In this document: piece after piece, positions 5,496-21,992 of the stretch
How the letters are laid out: every line of letters starts with the position of its first letter
How positions within the stretch are numbered: position 1 is the stretch's first letter
Assembly (NCBI GenBank): GCA_016185545.1
Contig: JACPNJ010000001.1
Span: 86,565-132,096 of the forward strand
DNA length: 45,532 bases
Reading direction: 5' to 3'
Source: Candidatus Yanofskyibacteriota bacterium
Lineage (GTDB): Bacteria > Patescibacteriota > Minisyncoccia > 2-02-FULL-40-12 > IGHO2-01-FULL-4-A
Translations under genes and position numbers: made by a program
Notes under the pieces: generated by a model
The model's input: the letters and a program-made list of their open reading frames with translations, nothing else
Databases searched by the model: none
What the model was told of the DNA's origin: nothing

Positions 5496-5530
5496 GGACA
5501 TCGCAAGTCTTGTTAAGACTTGCGATGTCC
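5496..5530. repeat. Perfect 16-bp inverted repeat, TGCGATGTC family
   Basis: Arms at 5496-5511 and 5515-5530 are perfectly complementary, with a 3-base loop. The core GGACATCGCAAGT recurs with one change at 21808-21840 inside a glycosyltransferase gene, so it is a dispersed element. It sits in the divergent gap upstream of gltX. Confidence 0.8.
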
Positions 5531-5560: not shown

Positions 5561-6985
5561 ATGACCAAGGTGAAAAAAGAGATAATTAGAGTCCGTATAG
5601 CACCTAGTCCGACCGGATATTTGCATATCGGTACTGCTCGCACCGCGCTTTTTAATTGGCTTTTCGCACGGCACAAAAGCGAGGGCAAATTTATCTTGCG
5701 CATAGAAGATACCGACATTGAGCGTTCGGAAAAAAAATTTGAGGACGATATTATCGCGCAGCTTGAATGGCTGGGCCTGAAATGGGATGAGTTCTATAAA
5801 CAAAGCGACCGCACAAAAATTTATTCCAAATATATTCAGAAATTACTAGATGATGGGAAAGCATTCTGGTGTTATCACAGCGAGGAAGAACTAGAAAAGG
5901 AAAGGCAGGAACAAATGTCTGGCAAGGGCGTGCCGACGCATTGGTGTAGCCATAAACCTCAAACCTCAAACCTCAAACCTCAAAATTTAGGTAAGGGAAT
6001 AATAAGACTTGTGGCTGATGAGAAATCAACTCGGAAAATTAAGTTTAACGATATAATTCGCGGGGAGATAGAATTTGAGGAACGTTTGCTGGGCGATATC
6101 AGTATCGCCAAAGCTGTTGATACGCCGCTTTATCATTTTGCGGTAGTGATAGACGATTACGAAATGGATATAACCCATGTGATTCGCGGCGAAGACCACA
6201 TTGCCAATACTCCCAAACAAATTCTTTTGCAGGAAGCTTTCGGATTTGAACAGCCGCAGTACGCGCATTTACCTTTGATATTGGGAACAGATCGGTCTAA
6301 ATTATCCAAACGCCACGCGGCCACTTCAGTCGCGGAATACCGAAAGTTGGGTTATTTGCCGGATGCTCTGGTCAATTTTCTTTTTCTTTTAGGATGGACA
6401 CCTGAAAAATCAAATCATGAAATTTTGACAAAAAACGAAGTTATTGAGCAGTTTAGCTTAGAAAAAGTTCATAAGTCGGGGGCGGTTTTTGATATTAAAA
6501 AATTAAACTGGATTAACTCCCAATATATTAAAATGGAAAATGACGGAGGACTAGCCAAGCTGGTTCAGCCGTTTATTGAAAAGCACTACGGACCTTGTGA
6601 TGAAGAGCTGATTATAAAAATTGTTCCGCTTTTACGCGAACGCCTGGAATATCTGGACCAAGTCAAGGAGTTTCATTTTTTCTTTAAGGAACCGGAATAC
6701 GAAAAGGAATTATTGAAATGGAAATCGAGAAGTAACGAGGAAATCAAAAATTCGTTTAAAGAGATACAAAAAATAGTAGAAGGAATTGGCGTAGAAGATA
6801 AAAATAAATTGCGTCAGGAGCTGGATATGCTGGGCAAGCGTTTTGAAGATAGGGGATTGGCATATTGGCCATTCCGCGTTGCTTTAACCGGAGAAAAAGC
6901 CTCCCCAGACCCCGTGGATATTGCGTATATTCTAGGAAAAGAGAAAACGCTAAAAAGAATTCAAAAAGCAGTAAATAAAATTTAA
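5561..6985 (+). CDS. gltX: Glutamyl-tRNA synthetase
   Basis: GltX charges tRNA-Glu (and in organisms without GlnRS also tRNA-Gln). The class I signatures are clear: APSPTGYLHIGTARTALFNW near residues 14-33, and the KMSKS-type DRSKLSKRH near residue 245. The length of 474 residues is normal. At residues about 132-143 an insert KPQTSNLKPQ is encoded by four exact AAACCTC heptamers (5954-5981), in a loop between catalytic-domain elements. Transcription appears leaderless. The M23 peptidase region follows. Confidence 0.97.
   Translation: MTKVKKEIIRVRIAPSPTGYLHIGTARTALFNWLFARHKSEGKFILRIEDTDIERSEKKFEDDIIAQLEWLGLKWDEFYKQSDRTKIYSKYIQKLLDDGKAFWCYHSEEELEKERQEQMSGKGVPTHWCSHKPQTSNLKPQNLGKGIIRLVADEKSTRKIKFNDIIRGEIEFEERLLGDISIAKAVDTPLYHFAVVIDDYEMDITHVIRGEDHIANTPKQILLQEAFGFEQPQYAHLPLILGTDRSKLSKRHAATSVAEYRKLGYLPDALVNFLFLLGWTPEKSNHEILTKNEVIEQFSLEKVHKSGAVFDIKKLNWINSQYIKMENDGGLAKLVQPFIEKHYGPCDEELIIKIVPLLRERLEYLDQVKEFHFFFKEPEYEKELLKWKSRSNEEIKNSFKEIQKIVEGIGVEDKNKLRQELDMLGKRFEDRGLAYWPFRVALTGEKASPDPVDIAYILGKEKTLKRIQKAVNKI
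5954..5981. repeat. Heptamer tandem repeat (AAACCTC) x4 in gltX
   Basis: Four exact copies of AAACCTC lie in frame in gltX. 28 bases is not a multiple of three, so gain or loss of one unit would shift the frame of an essential gene. Confidence 0.9.
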
Positions 6986-8235: not shown

Positions 8236-8399
8236 TATTAGTTGTAGGATAATTATGATAGATTCACCCCTGAAGTGAAATTTTTAAGATAACCTGATAA
8301 ATTAAGCTTTTTTACAACTTTACACAAATTACCTGGCAGAAATGCTGGTTTTATTATTTTACATCTACTTAGTGGTTGAGCCACTAAGTAGAACGTGCT
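8236..8399. other. Gap between M23 peptidase and RAYT genes
   Basis: 164 bases of AT-rich sequence. The only structure I can support is the 12-bp palindrome at its right end (8364-8392). No clear promoter. Confidence 0.5.
8364..8392. repeat. REP-like palindrome, left end of the RAYT gene
   Basis: The 23-base core 8367-8389 has 9-bp arms ACTTAGTGG/CCACTAAGT around the loop TTGAG, extended to 12 bp by flanking TCT/AGA. The right arm ends 7 bases before the RAYT ATG. It is the type member of the family described for this window. Confidence 0.9.
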
Positions 8400-9071
8400 A
8401 TGAATAAACTGATGAGGGATATTAAATTTATAAACGGCGAGTTTTATCATATTTTCAATAGAGGAAATAATAAACGGCTCATATTTACAAGCCAATTTGA
8501 TCTTTGCAGATTTTTACAAAGCATGGACGAATTTAATGTTAGAGGCCCGATCGGGAGTATTTATGCCCAGTCTTTTAAAAAAGATTCACTTAATAGCTCA
8601 ACTACTAAGTCGCAGCGGCTAGTAGATTTTGTATGTTATTGTCTGAACCCCAATCATTATCATCTTTTAATCAAACAACTAGTTAATGATGGGATAAGGG
8701 AATTTATGCATAAACTCGGTGCTGGCTATACGCGATACTTTAATGAAAGATATAAATTAAGCGGCAGTTTATTTCAGGGGAGATTTAAAGCTATTCACAT
8801 AGATTCAAACGATTACCTTTTGCATCTGAGCGTTTATATCAATCTAAATAATAAAGTTCACAAACTTAGTAGCTCAGCTACTAAGTTATCAAGTTCTAGT
8901 TGGAATGAGTATATAAGGCCGTTTAAAAGTAATGATTTTTGTAAAAAAGATATCATTCTATCTCAATTCCAAAGTATTTCTAGTTACAAGGAATTTGCGT
9001 GCGATGCTCTAAAAACGATAAGAGACAGAAAAGATATGGAAAAGTCGTTAGAACTTTTACTTAGTAGCTGA
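8400..9071 (+). CDS. REP-associated tyrosine transposase (Y1/HUH, TnpA-REP)
   Basis: The N-terminal GEFYHIFNRGNN, the HUH pair in NPNHYHLLI (His86, His88), the nucleophile region GAGYTRYFN (Tyr110) and LFQGRFKAI are the signature of the RAYT branch of Y1 transposases. These nick and rejoin single-stranded DNA at palindromic REP sequences. The 223-residue protein carries two extra segments, LNSSTTK (about 64-70) and LSSSATK (about 156-162), each encoded by an in-frame copy of the flanking palindrome. Its stop TGA lies in the loop of the right-hand palindrome. It appears intact. Confidence 0.93.
   Translation: MNKLMRDIKFINGEFYHIFNRGNNKRLIFTSQFDLCRFLQSMDEFNVRGPIGSIYAQSFKKDSLNSSTTKSQRLVDFVCYCLNPNHYHLLIKQLVNDGIREFMHKLGAGYTRYFNERYKLSGSLFQGRFKAIHIDSNDYLLHLSVYINLNNKVHKLSSSATKLSSSSWNEYIRPFKSNDFCKKDIILSQFQSISSYKEFACDALKTIRDRKDMEKSLELLLSS
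8588..8610. repeat. REP-like palindrome copy inside the RAYT gene (1)
   Basis: Arms ACTTAATAG/CTACTAAGT with loop CTCAA (opposite orientation to the left-end copy), with one arm mismatch. In frame, encoding LNSSTTK. Confidence 0.8.
8864..8886. repeat. REP-like palindrome copy inside the RAYT gene (2)
   Basis: Perfect arms ACTTAGTAG/CTACTAAGT, loop CTCAG. In frame, encoding LSSSATK, in the same reading phase as copy 1. Confidence 0.88.
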
Positions 9072-9081
9072 GCTACTAAGT
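9059..9081. repeat. REP-like palindrome, right end of the RAYT gene
   Basis: Arms ACTTAGTAG/CTACTAAGT with loop CTGAG. The transposase stop codon TGA (9069-9071) is in the loop. Confidence 0.9.
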
Positions 9082-15207: not shown

Positions 15208-16062
15208 TTATTTGACCGATTGGATTTTTTGTAAGTTTCGGTACTTCCAAAAAAACTTTATGGCGCTGGCTATATGCCAGCGCGTTTTGCGGTTAAAGAT
15301 TACGTCCAGTAATCCCAGACCGGAACGTGACTCACGCTGATGGTAATGATACATTACGGCTTCTGGATAGTAAACGACCTTATAGTCATTATGCCAGAAA
15401 CGGCGAGCCCAATCAACGTCCTCAAAATACATAAAAAATCTCTCATCCATTGTGCCAATTTTATTGAGCGCTTCCCGGCTTACCATAATTGCCGAACCCA
15501 TCAGCCAATCCGGGGTTTGGATTTTTTGGGGGTCGGCATCAACCATTAAAAAATTATCCAGTTCTCTTTTAAACCACCCAAAACGGCCCAAAAAACTCCT
15601 GCGCGCAAGCATTGTAGCCAGTTTGTAATAACTAAAAAATGTCCTTTGATGCGTGCCGTTGAAATTCAGTACTTGCGGTCCCAGTATGCCAATATCAGGA
15701 TGTTTTTCCATAAAATTGATCATCTTTTGAATTGATTTGTCGGTAACAATCACATCAGGATTTAAAATCAGAATAAACTTACCACTAGAATTTTTAATTC
15801 CCATATTAACTCCCCGTGCATAGCCGAGGTTTTCTTTGAATGGCAGATATTTTATTTCCGGATATTGTTCGCGTATTAAATCTCTTGCTTGCCGCGAAAT
15901 GGTTGAATCCACCACGATAATCTCGGGTTTACTTAGAGGCTCAACCTCTAAGTGGTTTCGAGGTTGAACCTCTAAATCTTTAGTCTTTTTAAGCGATTTC
16001 AAACAGAGCTTCAAAAGTTCCGGTGTCTGATGGTGTACTATGACTATTGAAAATTCAGGCAT
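15208..16062 (-). CDS. Family 2 glycosyltransferase with REP-derived insert
   Basis: A GT2 enzyme (GT-A fold) with FSIVIVHHQTPELLKLCLKSL, EIIVVDST, the NLGYARGVNMGI motif and LILNPDV, as in rhamnosyltransferase-like proteins. Acidic FEDVDWARRF and C-terminal helix follow. After KSLKKTK there is an insert DLEVQPRNHLEVEPLSK (about residues 32-48), encoded by one full and one partial copy of the 23-bp palindrome (15931-15977). The insert is where family members go directly from the first helix to beta-2. It likely adds sugars to a cell-surface glycan. Confidence 0.92.
   Translation of the reverse strand: MPEFSIVIVHHQTPELLKLCLKSLKKTKDLEVQPRNHLEVEPLSKPEIIVVDSTISRQARDLIREQYPEIKYLPFKENLGYARGVNMGIKNSSGKFILILNPDVIVTDKSIQKMINFMEKHPDIGILGPQVLNFNGTHQRTFFSYYKLATMLARRSFLGRFGWFKRELDNFLMVDADPQKIQTPDWLMGSAIMVSREALNKIGTMDERFFMYFEDVDWARRFWHNDYKVVYYPEAVMYHYHQRESRSGLGLLDVIFNRKTRWHIASAIKFFWKYRNLQKIQSVK
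15931..15977. repeat. REP-like palindrome pair inside a GT2 gene
   Basis: A full 23-base copy at 15931-15953 (arms ACTTAGAGG/CCTCTAAGT, loop CTCAA) is followed after a few bases by a partial copy in opposite orientation (AGG-TTGAA-CCTCTAAAT, to 15977). In frame on the minus strand. Arm bases differ from the RAYT-end copies in a compensated way (T to A with A to T). Confidence 0.85.
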
Positions 16063-18426: not shown

Positions 18427-19927
18427 CAAAAAGTAAAAATGCCCTTTCATCAAAAATAGCGACGTCTGTTAAAGAATAAACCAGAACCCACGGGAGGAAA
18501 ATGAGAAGAGAGCCGAAGTAAATAGTAATCGGTAACTGGTAACTGGTAACTGGTTTCAAAAAATTGTTGTACAATTTTTTGAGTAGAAGCCAGAGGAACC
18601 AGAGGGCTAGAATAAGTGCCGGGATGCCCATTTCAGCGGCAATATTAAGATAAAGATTGTGAGCCGATGAGCCGGCTTTAACACGAGCAAGATCCTCCCT
18701 TACTACGACCGGAAAATTGCCTATCCCAACACCCAATAGCGGGTGTTTTATTATTGAACGAAGTGAGTCTTTCCATATCTCAATCCGGCGAGCATTGGAT
18801 GTTTCGCTTATATCTATAACCGATCTGGCTCGCTTGGCAAGCATGCCTGTTGAGTTCTTTTCTGCCATAAACTGATCCGAGGCAATAATATAATATGCTA
18901 CGCCGAATAACAAAAAGAAAATCGCCAAATAAGATGATATATATCCAAATTCAATATATGGTCTTCGCAAGGCTACATGCGTTTTGCGAAGACGAAAAAT
19001 TAAAAATATAGCCAAAATAGCGGACATGACGCCGGCGACCCAAATACCGCGTGTACCGGTGAGTATAAGAGCAAGAAAGATGATCGGCGTAAAAATTACA
19101 AGCATGGAAGCGCGTGTTTTAAGCATAGTTTTGAAGCCGATGCCCTTTCCAACAACTTTTTTCAGCGCAATTGCCATGACTGCCGGCAAACCCAGAAGCA
19201 GGAATATGGGAAAAGAATGTGAATCCGGGAAAATTGAAAACATACGTAATGAAAGTTGGTCGCCGAAATAAGCAAACCAAGTGTTGGCTTTGATAGCCGT
19301 TTCCGCCCAAACATTGCCGTACATGTTGCGCTCCACTACCCCGCCCCAAAAATCAACAAAGCGGAAAATGTCCATAAAATAAGTCATGGCAAGCTGGACC
19401 ATACCCAATAGCACGACTATAATTGTGGGAATCGCGATATTTTTAATTAGGCGACGACTGAAATCCTGATTTTTCCGCACTAAATCATAAATTACAATGC
19501 CGATTAGTGAAAGGTTTATAAAATAAATAATTCTTTTGGCGGATAAGATATAGTTTTGTGCCTGAGTGGCCGATAAAATGGCGAGCAGTAAAAGCCCAGC
19601 CAGCAAAAGGCATACTGTACGACATCGCATGTCGTACATGTACGACATGCGATGTCGTACATGCGATAATGCCCATTTTATAAAAATTAAACCCGATAGA
19701 ATGCGCCACATGTTAAGGGAATCAAAACCGGCAGTTATCGGAATGGCAATGAAAAATGGAATTGAACGTACAAAAAAAGTTGTGGAATCCTCAAGCGAAA
19801 CCAGCAAAACCTGAACTGTCAGGGCGATTGTCCAAAAAGGCACAACCGCCCGCGGCAAAATACCGGTTATAACCAAGCCGATAACAAGTAAATGAATTAC
19901 AAAAATAATATTTAAAAATTTCGACAT
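18371..19927 (-). CDS. O-antigen ligase/polymerase-like membrane protein
   Basis: A polytopic protein with about 11-12 hydrophobic helices and the Wzy_C/WaaL-type large outer loop ending RIEIWKDSLRSIIKHPLLGVGIGNFP and SSAHNLYLNIAAEMG. This H(N)xYL pattern is typical of ligases that join undecaprenyl-linked glycan to an acceptor. I choose ATG 19927 (16-base overlap with the upstream gene); ATG 19960 is an alternative. A 44-base perfect palindrome near residues 100-115 encodes VRHRMSYMYDMRCRT between two helices. A GGTAACT heptamer tract (18524-18555) encodes VTSYQLPIT near the C-terminus. Confidence 0.9.
   Translation of the reverse strand: MSKFLNIIFVIHLLVIGLVITGILPRAVVPFWTIALTVQVLLVSLEDSTTFFVRSIPFFIAIPITAGFDSLNMWRILSGLIFIKWALSHVRHRMSYMYDMRCRTVCLLLAGLLLLAILSATQAQNYILSAKRIIYFINLSLIGIVIYDLVRKNQDFSRRLIKNIAIPTIIVVLLGMVQLAMTYFMDIFRFVDFWGGVVERNMYGNVWAETAIKANTWFAYFGDQLSLRMFSIFPDSHSFPIFLLLGLPAVMAIALKKVVGKGIGFKTMLKTRASMLVIFTPIIFLALILTGTRGIWVAGVMSAILAIFLIFRLRKTHVALRRPYIEFGYISSYLAIFFLLFGVAYYIIASDQFMAEKNSTGMLAKRARSVIDISETSNARRIEIWKDSLRSIIKHPLLGVGIGNFPVVVREDLARVKAGSSAHNLYLNIAAEMGIPALILALWFLWLLLKKLYNNFLKPVTSYQLPITIYFGSLLIFLPWVLVYSLTDVAIFDERAFLLFVTTIALVLAQKENGRAAE
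18524..18555. repeat. Heptamer tandem repeat (GGTAACT) in the ligase gene
   Basis: Three near-exact units plus flanking variants, encoding PVTSYQLPIT on the minus strand. Confidence 0.8.
19617..19660. repeat. Perfect 44-base palindrome in the ligase gene
   Basis: Positions 19617-19660 are a perfect self-complementary sequence with no unpaired loop. It has internal sub-palindromes, since ACGACATGCGATGTCGT is itself nearly self-complementary. It encodes a hydrophilic, Arg/Met-rich loop. The GACATCGCA/TGCGATGTC core resembles the palindromes at 5496 and 21808. Confidence 0.92.
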
Positions 19928-21086: not shown

Positions 21087-21992
21087 CTAATTTATTTGAC
21101 CAAATTTTCCTCTATAAAAATCCCCTACCCCGGCCAGAATTGCCTTTGAAATTTCTCGTTTAGTTGGAATCAGCGTAATCTTGATAATCTGTTTTATTAT
21201 AATAAAAATTGACCAAAACGGCAAGGCAAGTTTGGCCCAAAATGGCCCATTTTTATAATTGAAAAGATGAGCGTTACGGTAGTGGTAGCGGAGCAATAAT
21301 GGTGCGCCCAGTGAGAATGTTGATGATGACGGTTTGTGGTGGACGAATGCTTCTGGCGCGATTTTTAATTTGTAGCCGGCTTTTTGACCACGAAGGCAAT
21401 AATCAGCATCTTCAAAATAGAGGAAAAAGCGTTCATCCAGTAAACCGATTTTTTCAACAACTTTTCTTTTAATTAGCATTGCTGCCCCCGACGCGTAACA
21501 CTTAGTGGTTGAGCCACTAAGTGGACTTAGTGGCTCAACCACTAAGTGGGAAAGTTCTGGTTTTAACCATTTAATTTGGCCGCCGTAAATTATTTGACCA
21601 TTTTCATTTATCGCTGGACCGAGAATGCCAATTTGCGGATCAGATTTTGCGGTTTCTATCAGTTTTGTCAGTACGTTTTTTTCAATTGTGGTATCTGGGT
21701 TTAGTATGAAGACATAATCAGCCCCGCGTTCTAATGCATGCTTGATACCGGCATTGTTGCCGCCGGAATAGCCGAGATTGGAATCAAGGGCAATAATTTT
21801 AATTTTGGGACATTGCAAGTTCAGTGGACTTGCGATGTCCTTTAATACTTCAATATGTTTGGCATCGGATCCATTATCTACTACAATTACCTCATGGTTC
21901 TGATAGTCAAGTTCTTTAACAGAATTAAGGCACCGCATGGTGTCTTGGGAATTATTGTATTGGAGGATGATGATGAAAACCTTTGGAATCAT
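21087..21992 (-). CDS. Family 2 glycosyltransferase with two palindromic inserts
   Basis: A GT2 enzyme with VFIIILQYNNSQDTMRCLNSV, HEVIVVDNGSDAK, DSNLGYSGGNNAGIKHAL and FILNPDTTIEKNV, the typical nucleotide-sugar-binding order, then YFEDADYCLRGQKAGY. Two inserts stand out: SPLNLQCPKIK (palindrome 21808-21840) between beta-2 and the NLGYSGG motif, and LSHLVVEPLSPLSGSTTK (two REP-like palindromes, 21500-21547) before GAAMLIKR. Both preserve the frame. A C-terminal hydrophobic helix (ALPFWSIFIIIKQIIKI) may bind the membrane. Confidence 0.92.
   Translation of the reverse strand: MIPKVFIIILQYNNSQDTMRCLNSVKELDYQNHEVIVVDNGSDAKHIEVLKDIASPLNLQCPKIKIIALDSNLGYSGGNNAGIKHALERGADYVFILNPDTTIEKNVLTKLIETAKSDPQIGILGPAINENGQIIYGGQIKWLKPELSHLVVEPLSPLSGSTTKCYASGAAMLIKRKVVEKIGLLDERFFLYFEDADYCLRGQKAGYKLKIAPEAFVHHKPSSSTFSLGAPLLLRYHYRNAHLFNYKNGPFWAKLALPFWSIFIIIKQIIKITLIPTKREISKAILAGVGDFYRGKFGQIN
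21500..21547. repeat. Head-to-head pair of REP-like palindromes in a GT2 gene
   Basis: 21500-21522 is identical in its 23 bases to the RAYT left-end copy (loop TTGAG). 21525-21547 is the same sequence inverted, except for one loop base (loop CTCAA), with GG between. The pair resembles BIME organisation in enterobacteria. In frame. Confidence 0.93.
21808..21840. repeat. TGCGATGTC-family palindrome in a GT2 gene
   Basis: GGACATTGCAAGT (21808-21820) and ACTTGCGATGTCC (21828-21840) pair with one wobble. Near-identical to the 5496-5530 palindrome. In frame. Confidence 0.82.

Follow-up and report, generated by a model that had tools for sequence, protein, structure and literature searches.

How does a transposase gene come to carry, in frame and twice over, the palindrome that also flanks it, and what do such copies do there? 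The question is raised by a RAYT gene in a stretch of 45,532 nucleotides (hereafter the window) from Candidatus Yanofskyibacteriota bacterium (assembly GCA_016185545.1, contig JACPNJ010000001.1, positions 86,565 to 132,096). An earlier note on this DNA had described four copies of a 23-base palindrome, located before the ATG, at the stop codon and twice inside the gene, and had read them as an unusual, self-targeting but non-disruptive element. All four copies were found at these places (Table 1), and the interpretation as a whole was partly supported by the analysis reported here.

The transposase gene and its four palindromes

The gene product scores 30.3 bits against PF01797 (Y1_Tnp; cut-off 23) and carries an HUH motif of the form NHYH (aa 85-88). 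Its AF2 model, built from seven sequences (mean pLDDT 83, pTM 0.81), has as top match among solved structures 4er8_A, the E. coli TnpA_REP with bound REP hairpin (Z 15.2, rmsd 2.8, 150 aa). Domain, motif and predicted fold together confirm the assignment of the gene as a RAYT (TnpA_REP), accompanied, as the earlier note had it, by palindromes of cognate type. In the same model, pLDDT falls below 50 over at least three residues only at aa 1-6, 60-69 and 157-160, which correspond to the N-terminus and to both palindrome-encoded stretches (aa 64-70 and 156-162). With 23 bits against a cut-off of 80 for the NCBIfam equivalog REP_Tyr_transpos (NF047646), the protein is a divergent relative and not an equivalog; no relative was returned by phmmer against the PDB or by a search of viral contigs. 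The gene sits between an M23 peptidase gene and an NDH2-like gene. In genome G003 this interval (L186) holds a RAYT of a different palindrome type, and in G001 (L188) other small genes without a RAYT. L027 of G003 has this position in common with the window RAYT but was rejected as its orthologue, the two not being sisters on the protein tree.

Table 1. Positions in the window of the RAYT gene, its palindromes and two further in-frame palindromes
Feature	Position	Strand	Remark
5' flanking palindrome (AGTGG type)	8364..8392		23-mer core 8367-8389
RAYT (TnpA_REP-like HUH Y1 transposase), 223 aa	8400..9071	+	PF01797; fold match 4er8
In-gene palindrome, site I, encodes LNSSTTK (aa 64-70)	8588..8610		low-confidence loop aa 60-69
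In-gene palindrome, site II, encodes LSSSATK (aa 156-162)	8864..8886		low-confidence segment aa 157-160
3' palindrome with stop codon TGA (9069-9071) in its loop	9059..9081		sequence
Related palindrome (AGAGG type) and partial second copy, in frame in family-2 glycosyltransferase (15208-16062, -)	15931..15953	-	
Inverted doublet (AGTGG type), in frame in family-2 glycosyltransferase (21087-21992, -)	21500..21547	-	

The 5' copy extends to a 29-bp palindrome with 12-bp arms and ends 7 nt before the ATG. The two internal copies share one reading phase and encode the peptides that the earlier note had given for them. Its description of the unit was accurate in part: the loops of the four copies are TTGAG, CTCAA, CTCAG and CTGAG, of which the first two agree with the TTGAG/CTCAA loop described, and the 9-bp arms hold in general but contain one mismatched pair in the site I copy. 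On both sides, the gene is thus flanked by copies of a palindrome that is dispersed in the genome. Seventeen copies were found genome-wide at up to three mismatches, compared to none for a reversed control pattern, which argues against chance; the outcome named beforehand as fatal to the earlier reading, a 23-mer found only once elsewhere, did not occur. A broader pattern retrieved 23 copies in the window genome and 70 in ten genomes (reversed control 0 in each). Any palindrome with arms of at least 9 and a loop of at most 5 arose in 28 of 1000 synonymous-codon shuffles of the window gene, a test that takes no account of the match between in-gene and flanking copies.

A classification of these palindromes as GTAG REPs, defined by an unpaired GTAG or GTGG at the foot of the hairpin, was ruled out, as GTRG was present within 0-2 nt of, or at the start of, a flanking palindrome in just four of 99 genes. 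GTRG does lie inside the arms of the window type and is absent from those of sister types, such as the ones of L019 and L027. At the ends of ACTTRG...CYAAGT units (window and related loci, e.g. L010, L013, L041 and L043), a pyrimidine occupies position -2 in 121 of 138 cases (background 0.52), mostly at both ends (52 of 57 single copies). This pyrimidine just outside the 23-mer perhaps belongs to the recognised unit or marks a cleavage site.

Matched palindromes at two loops of related transposases

The window genome (853 kb, 8 contigs) contains four Y1_Tnp genes. The paralogue L019 has its own palindrome type (ACTTAGAGG) at the stop codon and at the two corresponding in-gene places, with the same spacing of 276 nt; in L021 site I is missing and site II is degenerate; and the fourth gene, L020, has an unrelated palindrome with a matching copy near site I. 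Palindromes like the L020 type were also observed elsewhere in the window: one at 5496-5530, upstream of a glutamyl-tRNA synthetase-like gene at 5561, and a doublet at 19616-19661 inside an O-antigen ligase gene.

Relatives at E <= 1e-15 are present in 107 of 379 genomes of the phylum, the nearest named loci belonging to Nomurabacteria and Paceibacterota, which together with the small genome points to a Patescibacteria (CPR) host. Eighty-four loci were examined, roughly in order of E-value (left out were e.g. G037, G072 C71, G118, G119 C21, G161 C30, G165 C43, G168 C2 and G176 C32); L039, without a usable ORF, was dropped, and the remaining 83 genes represent the best matches to the window protein and not a random sample. 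A flanking palindrome with arms of at least 8 was found for 66 of the 83. In half of these (33/66) an in-gene copy matches the gene's own flanking core at 80% identity or more, compared to 9 of 7635 non-self pairings, in which genes were paired with dissimilar cores of other genes; in 23 of the 66 the identity is 100%. At a threshold of 75% there are 43 copies in 33 genes, with 28 at window aa 57-70, 12 at 158-161 and three elsewhere, so that 40 of 43 lie at sites I and II although the palindrome itself varies between genes. At site II of L034 a copy is evident, but as the flanking copies are imperfect the gene was counted among those without. In the ACTT family, the own flank was the best match for nine of 13 in-gene copies examined and tied for the other four, in which two genes have one type in common.

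For a second set of 40 genes the thresholds and placement windows were fixed beforehand. Self copies were present in 8 of 34 genes (23.5%, under the preset bar of 25%), against 2 of 2032 non-self pairings, and eight of nine copies fell inside the preset windows, the one of L133 lying one residue outside. On a tree of 122 proteins (40 with a self copy, 59 with flanking palindromes only and 23 without a flanking palindrome; the Bacteroidales gene L040, one of the 83, was excluded), the self label has to change no fewer than 16 times, and well-supported branches enforce 13 of these changes. In-frame copies inside the transposase gene, as described in the earlier note, are real, and they recur in relatives.

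Whether the copies were inserted into the transposase is less clear from the alignments. Palindrome-free homologues have different peptides at the two sites, so that the other outcome named beforehand as refuting, identical peptides without the palindrome, was not seen; their loops are of similar length: the medians with and without palindrome are 30 and 28 aa at site I and 19 and 19 aa at site II (Mann-Whitney p = 0.047 and 0.064, respectively). As the length ranges overlap, clean insertion into the RAYT gene itself was rejected as a conclusion from these alignments.

In-frame palindromes in other genes and how they may be explained

Outside the RAYTs, 41 palindrome sites from eight genomes were examined, of which 34 are contained in an ORF and seven are not. 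Three of these ORFs are short (71-78 aa) and two longer ones lack a Pfam match, which leaves 29 of the 41 sites in frame in genes supported by Pfam or aligned orthologues (among them L237, with a Pfam match just below the cut-off). The host genes encode arginyl-, glycyl- and cysteinyl-tRNA synthetases (ArgRS, GlyRS, CysRS) and another class II synthetase, UvrA, UvrC, DNA polymerase I, MurD, Fmt, ComEC, a D-Ala-D-Ala carboxypeptidase and glycosyltransferases. With the same palindromes in frame in so many unrelated genes, "self-targeting" was too strong a term. Reading frames B and C are used by 13 and 22 of the 35 coding copies and frame A by none; frame A is stop-free in only eight. At 1501-1523 of L250, a copy was observed at the junction of two same-strand ORFs, overlapping the end of the first one, as at the stop codon of the window RAYT.

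Gain of a unit is clearest for GlyRS of the window genome (G000), which has a clean 16-codon insertion of palindrome units that all seven aligned orthologues lack, including two with 89-90% identity; this is the clean in-frame gain relative to orthologues that is looked for in elements like the Rickettsia palindromic elements (RPEs). ArgRS carries an inverted doublet at one slot in G000 and G003, of different types; G002, G001 and four others have none there. The G003 ArgRS (L191) has, at aa 489, a further palindromic insert that belongs to a third type. In CysRS, three species of the genus have three palindrome types in one seven-codon slot and in identical phase, and most outgroups have a loop of about equal length.

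Taken together, these data make it likely that the locus consists of a RAYT and cognate REP-like palindromes that act as short in-frame coding elements. By analogy with E. coli TnpA_REP, the RAYT would recognise the hairpin in single-stranded DNA and spread copies of it, and mobilisation of the palindromes by the RAYT is what we infer. Intragenic copies would persist only after landing in flexible loops in an open frame, while gene conversion or repeated replacement, perhaps by the enzyme itself, may keep those at the RAYT locus matched to the copies on its flanks; template-switch repair of palindromes is a further candidate for this matching. The internal RAYT copies would then be mostly tolerated passengers, not a dedicated device.

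It could be argued, on the contrary, that the internal palindromes are functional control sites, bound in the gene or its mRNA by the RAYT or another factor, which limit expression or activity and are kept for that reason. The recurrence of the same two loops, with copies matching their own flanking palindrome across many diverged genes, and the position of the 5' copy so close to the ATG would fit such a role. We nevertheless consider it improbable: the same units occur in genes as unrelated as GlyRS and DNA polymerase I, where control by a RAYT is not expected, copies have decayed or been lost in L021 (both sites) and at site I of L027 and the window gene, and an in-gene copy is missing from 59 of the 99 genes that have flanking palindromes, an absence that, together with the decay, speaks against an indispensable function. 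Selection at the peptide level, by which Gly/Ser-rich linkers would have given rise to look-alike palindromes without any mobile unit, is barely credible. The encoded peptides are indeed small and hydrophilic, but they vary with the palindrome type while the symmetry of the DNA is kept, coding copies equal the non-coding flanking ones (completely so in the 23 genes mentioned above), and the gain of whole units in GlyRS refutes this explanation for that gene.

A separate matter, compatible with the reading of the locus as a RAYT with coding palindromes, is how sister species came to have different types in the same slot. It is conceivable, if somewhat doubtful, that a few permissive or preferred slots received their insertions independently, instead of an old copy being converted: the slots are loops and few in number, the GlyRS copy is found in G000 only, and the preference for a pyrimidine next to the unit may point to a target. 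On the other hand, the CysRS phase is identical in three species, and at each doublet slot G000 and G003 keep one spacing (23 nt for ArgRS, 25 nt for the glycosyltransferase) while the type differs, which speaks more for an old element whose sequence has changed than for independent insertions. A rather unlikely extension is that existing palindromes are replaced on the spot by ones of the current type, through the RAYT itself or through recombination that it directs. If true, a change of recognition type would run through coding slots and rewrite short peptides of the transposase and of essential enzymes, a genome-wide conversion of protein segments in which site, phase and doublet spacing are preserved. 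The link between types and present RAYTs is incomplete, given that no RAYT of the same type was seen in the genome for AGGAG in G000 and AGAGG in G003.

Comparison with known REP and palindromic element systems

In-frame REPs in RAYT genes are already known from Quentin et al. 2018 (PMC6006769), which rules out that they were unreported and makes the word "unusual" in the earlier note too strong: in its subclass 2.4, REPs are inserted within tnpA_REP genes with the frame intact, generally between HuH and Tyr. As in that subclass, the REPs considered here flank the gene and sit inside it in frame, in variable peripheral loops. In contrast to it, sites I and II are located before the HUH strand and after the Tyr helix or next conserved helix region, the HUH signature of the window RAYT is NHYH instead of NH[IFV]H, and the GT[AG]G foot of subclass 2.4 has a counterpart in only the few genes with GTRG counted above. 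The window RAYT therefore shares the in-frame REPs of subclass 2.4 and neither their placement nor the signature. In the class to which a Bacteroidales genome belongs, 30 relatives were examined, and a self copy was found in 9 of 19 genes with flanking palindromes (one of the nine, L154, being the query gene itself), with a less clean non-self control (10/379). All nine copies lie between the HUH motif and the following helix, which is the place described for subclass 2.4 in PMC6006769. Large in-gene palindromes without a flanking palindrome by the same test were also observed in this class (L166, L169, L183 and others), with L166 and L169 having them also further towards the C-terminus. The E. 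coli K-12 rayT gene contains none of the REPs that flank it: for four REP stretches, the best identity was 0.47-0.59.

Intragenic REPs are likewise known. According to Di Nocera et al. 2013 (PMC3733652), GTAG and CGTC REPs occur within genes in several species, and their targets include genes for DNA repair and for tRNA synthetases. The resemblance extends to the occurrence of single or dimeric REPs in frame in genes such as uvrA and those of DNA polymerase I and tRNA synthetase, to different REPs at about one site, as in recB of two Xanthomonas, and to the proposal of loops as harmless sites. Those families differ in belonging to other lineages and in being defined by GTAG or CGTC tags, the GTRG foot being rare here. 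In E. coli and Pseudomonas, the REP/RAYT systems (REPtron, REPIN; PMC8266576, PMC2817692) also have REP-flanked RAYTs and inverted doublets, and E. coli TnpA_REP handles its hairpin in single-stranded DNA (PMC8266576); their REPs are known as mostly extragenic, whereas those described here are also found in frame in genes.

By the literature searched, from which supplementary files and most subscription papers were absent, the new elements are the Patescibacteria lineage, the placement in two other loops, the lack of a GTRG foot and the matched switching of palindrome type; no account of such copies in Patescibacteria or at these two loops, or of a matched change of type, was found there. In-frame REPs, in RAYT genes and elsewhere, are hereby extended to very small genomes with scarce coding space, and orthologous positions in essential genes offer sites at which the co-evolution of transposase and palindrome can be read. 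Similar to the RPEs (PMC10969869, PMC2229807, PMC3733652), these palindromes are found in frame within conserved protein-coding genes of a small genome. Most RPEs measure about 100-150 bp, compared to the 23-bp units accompanied here by a RAYT that is flanked by the same unit. RPE-like coding palindromes are thereby placed beside a plausible transposase, unlike the CGTC-tagged repeats RPE-4 and RPE-6, for which PMC3733652 found no associated transposase gene.
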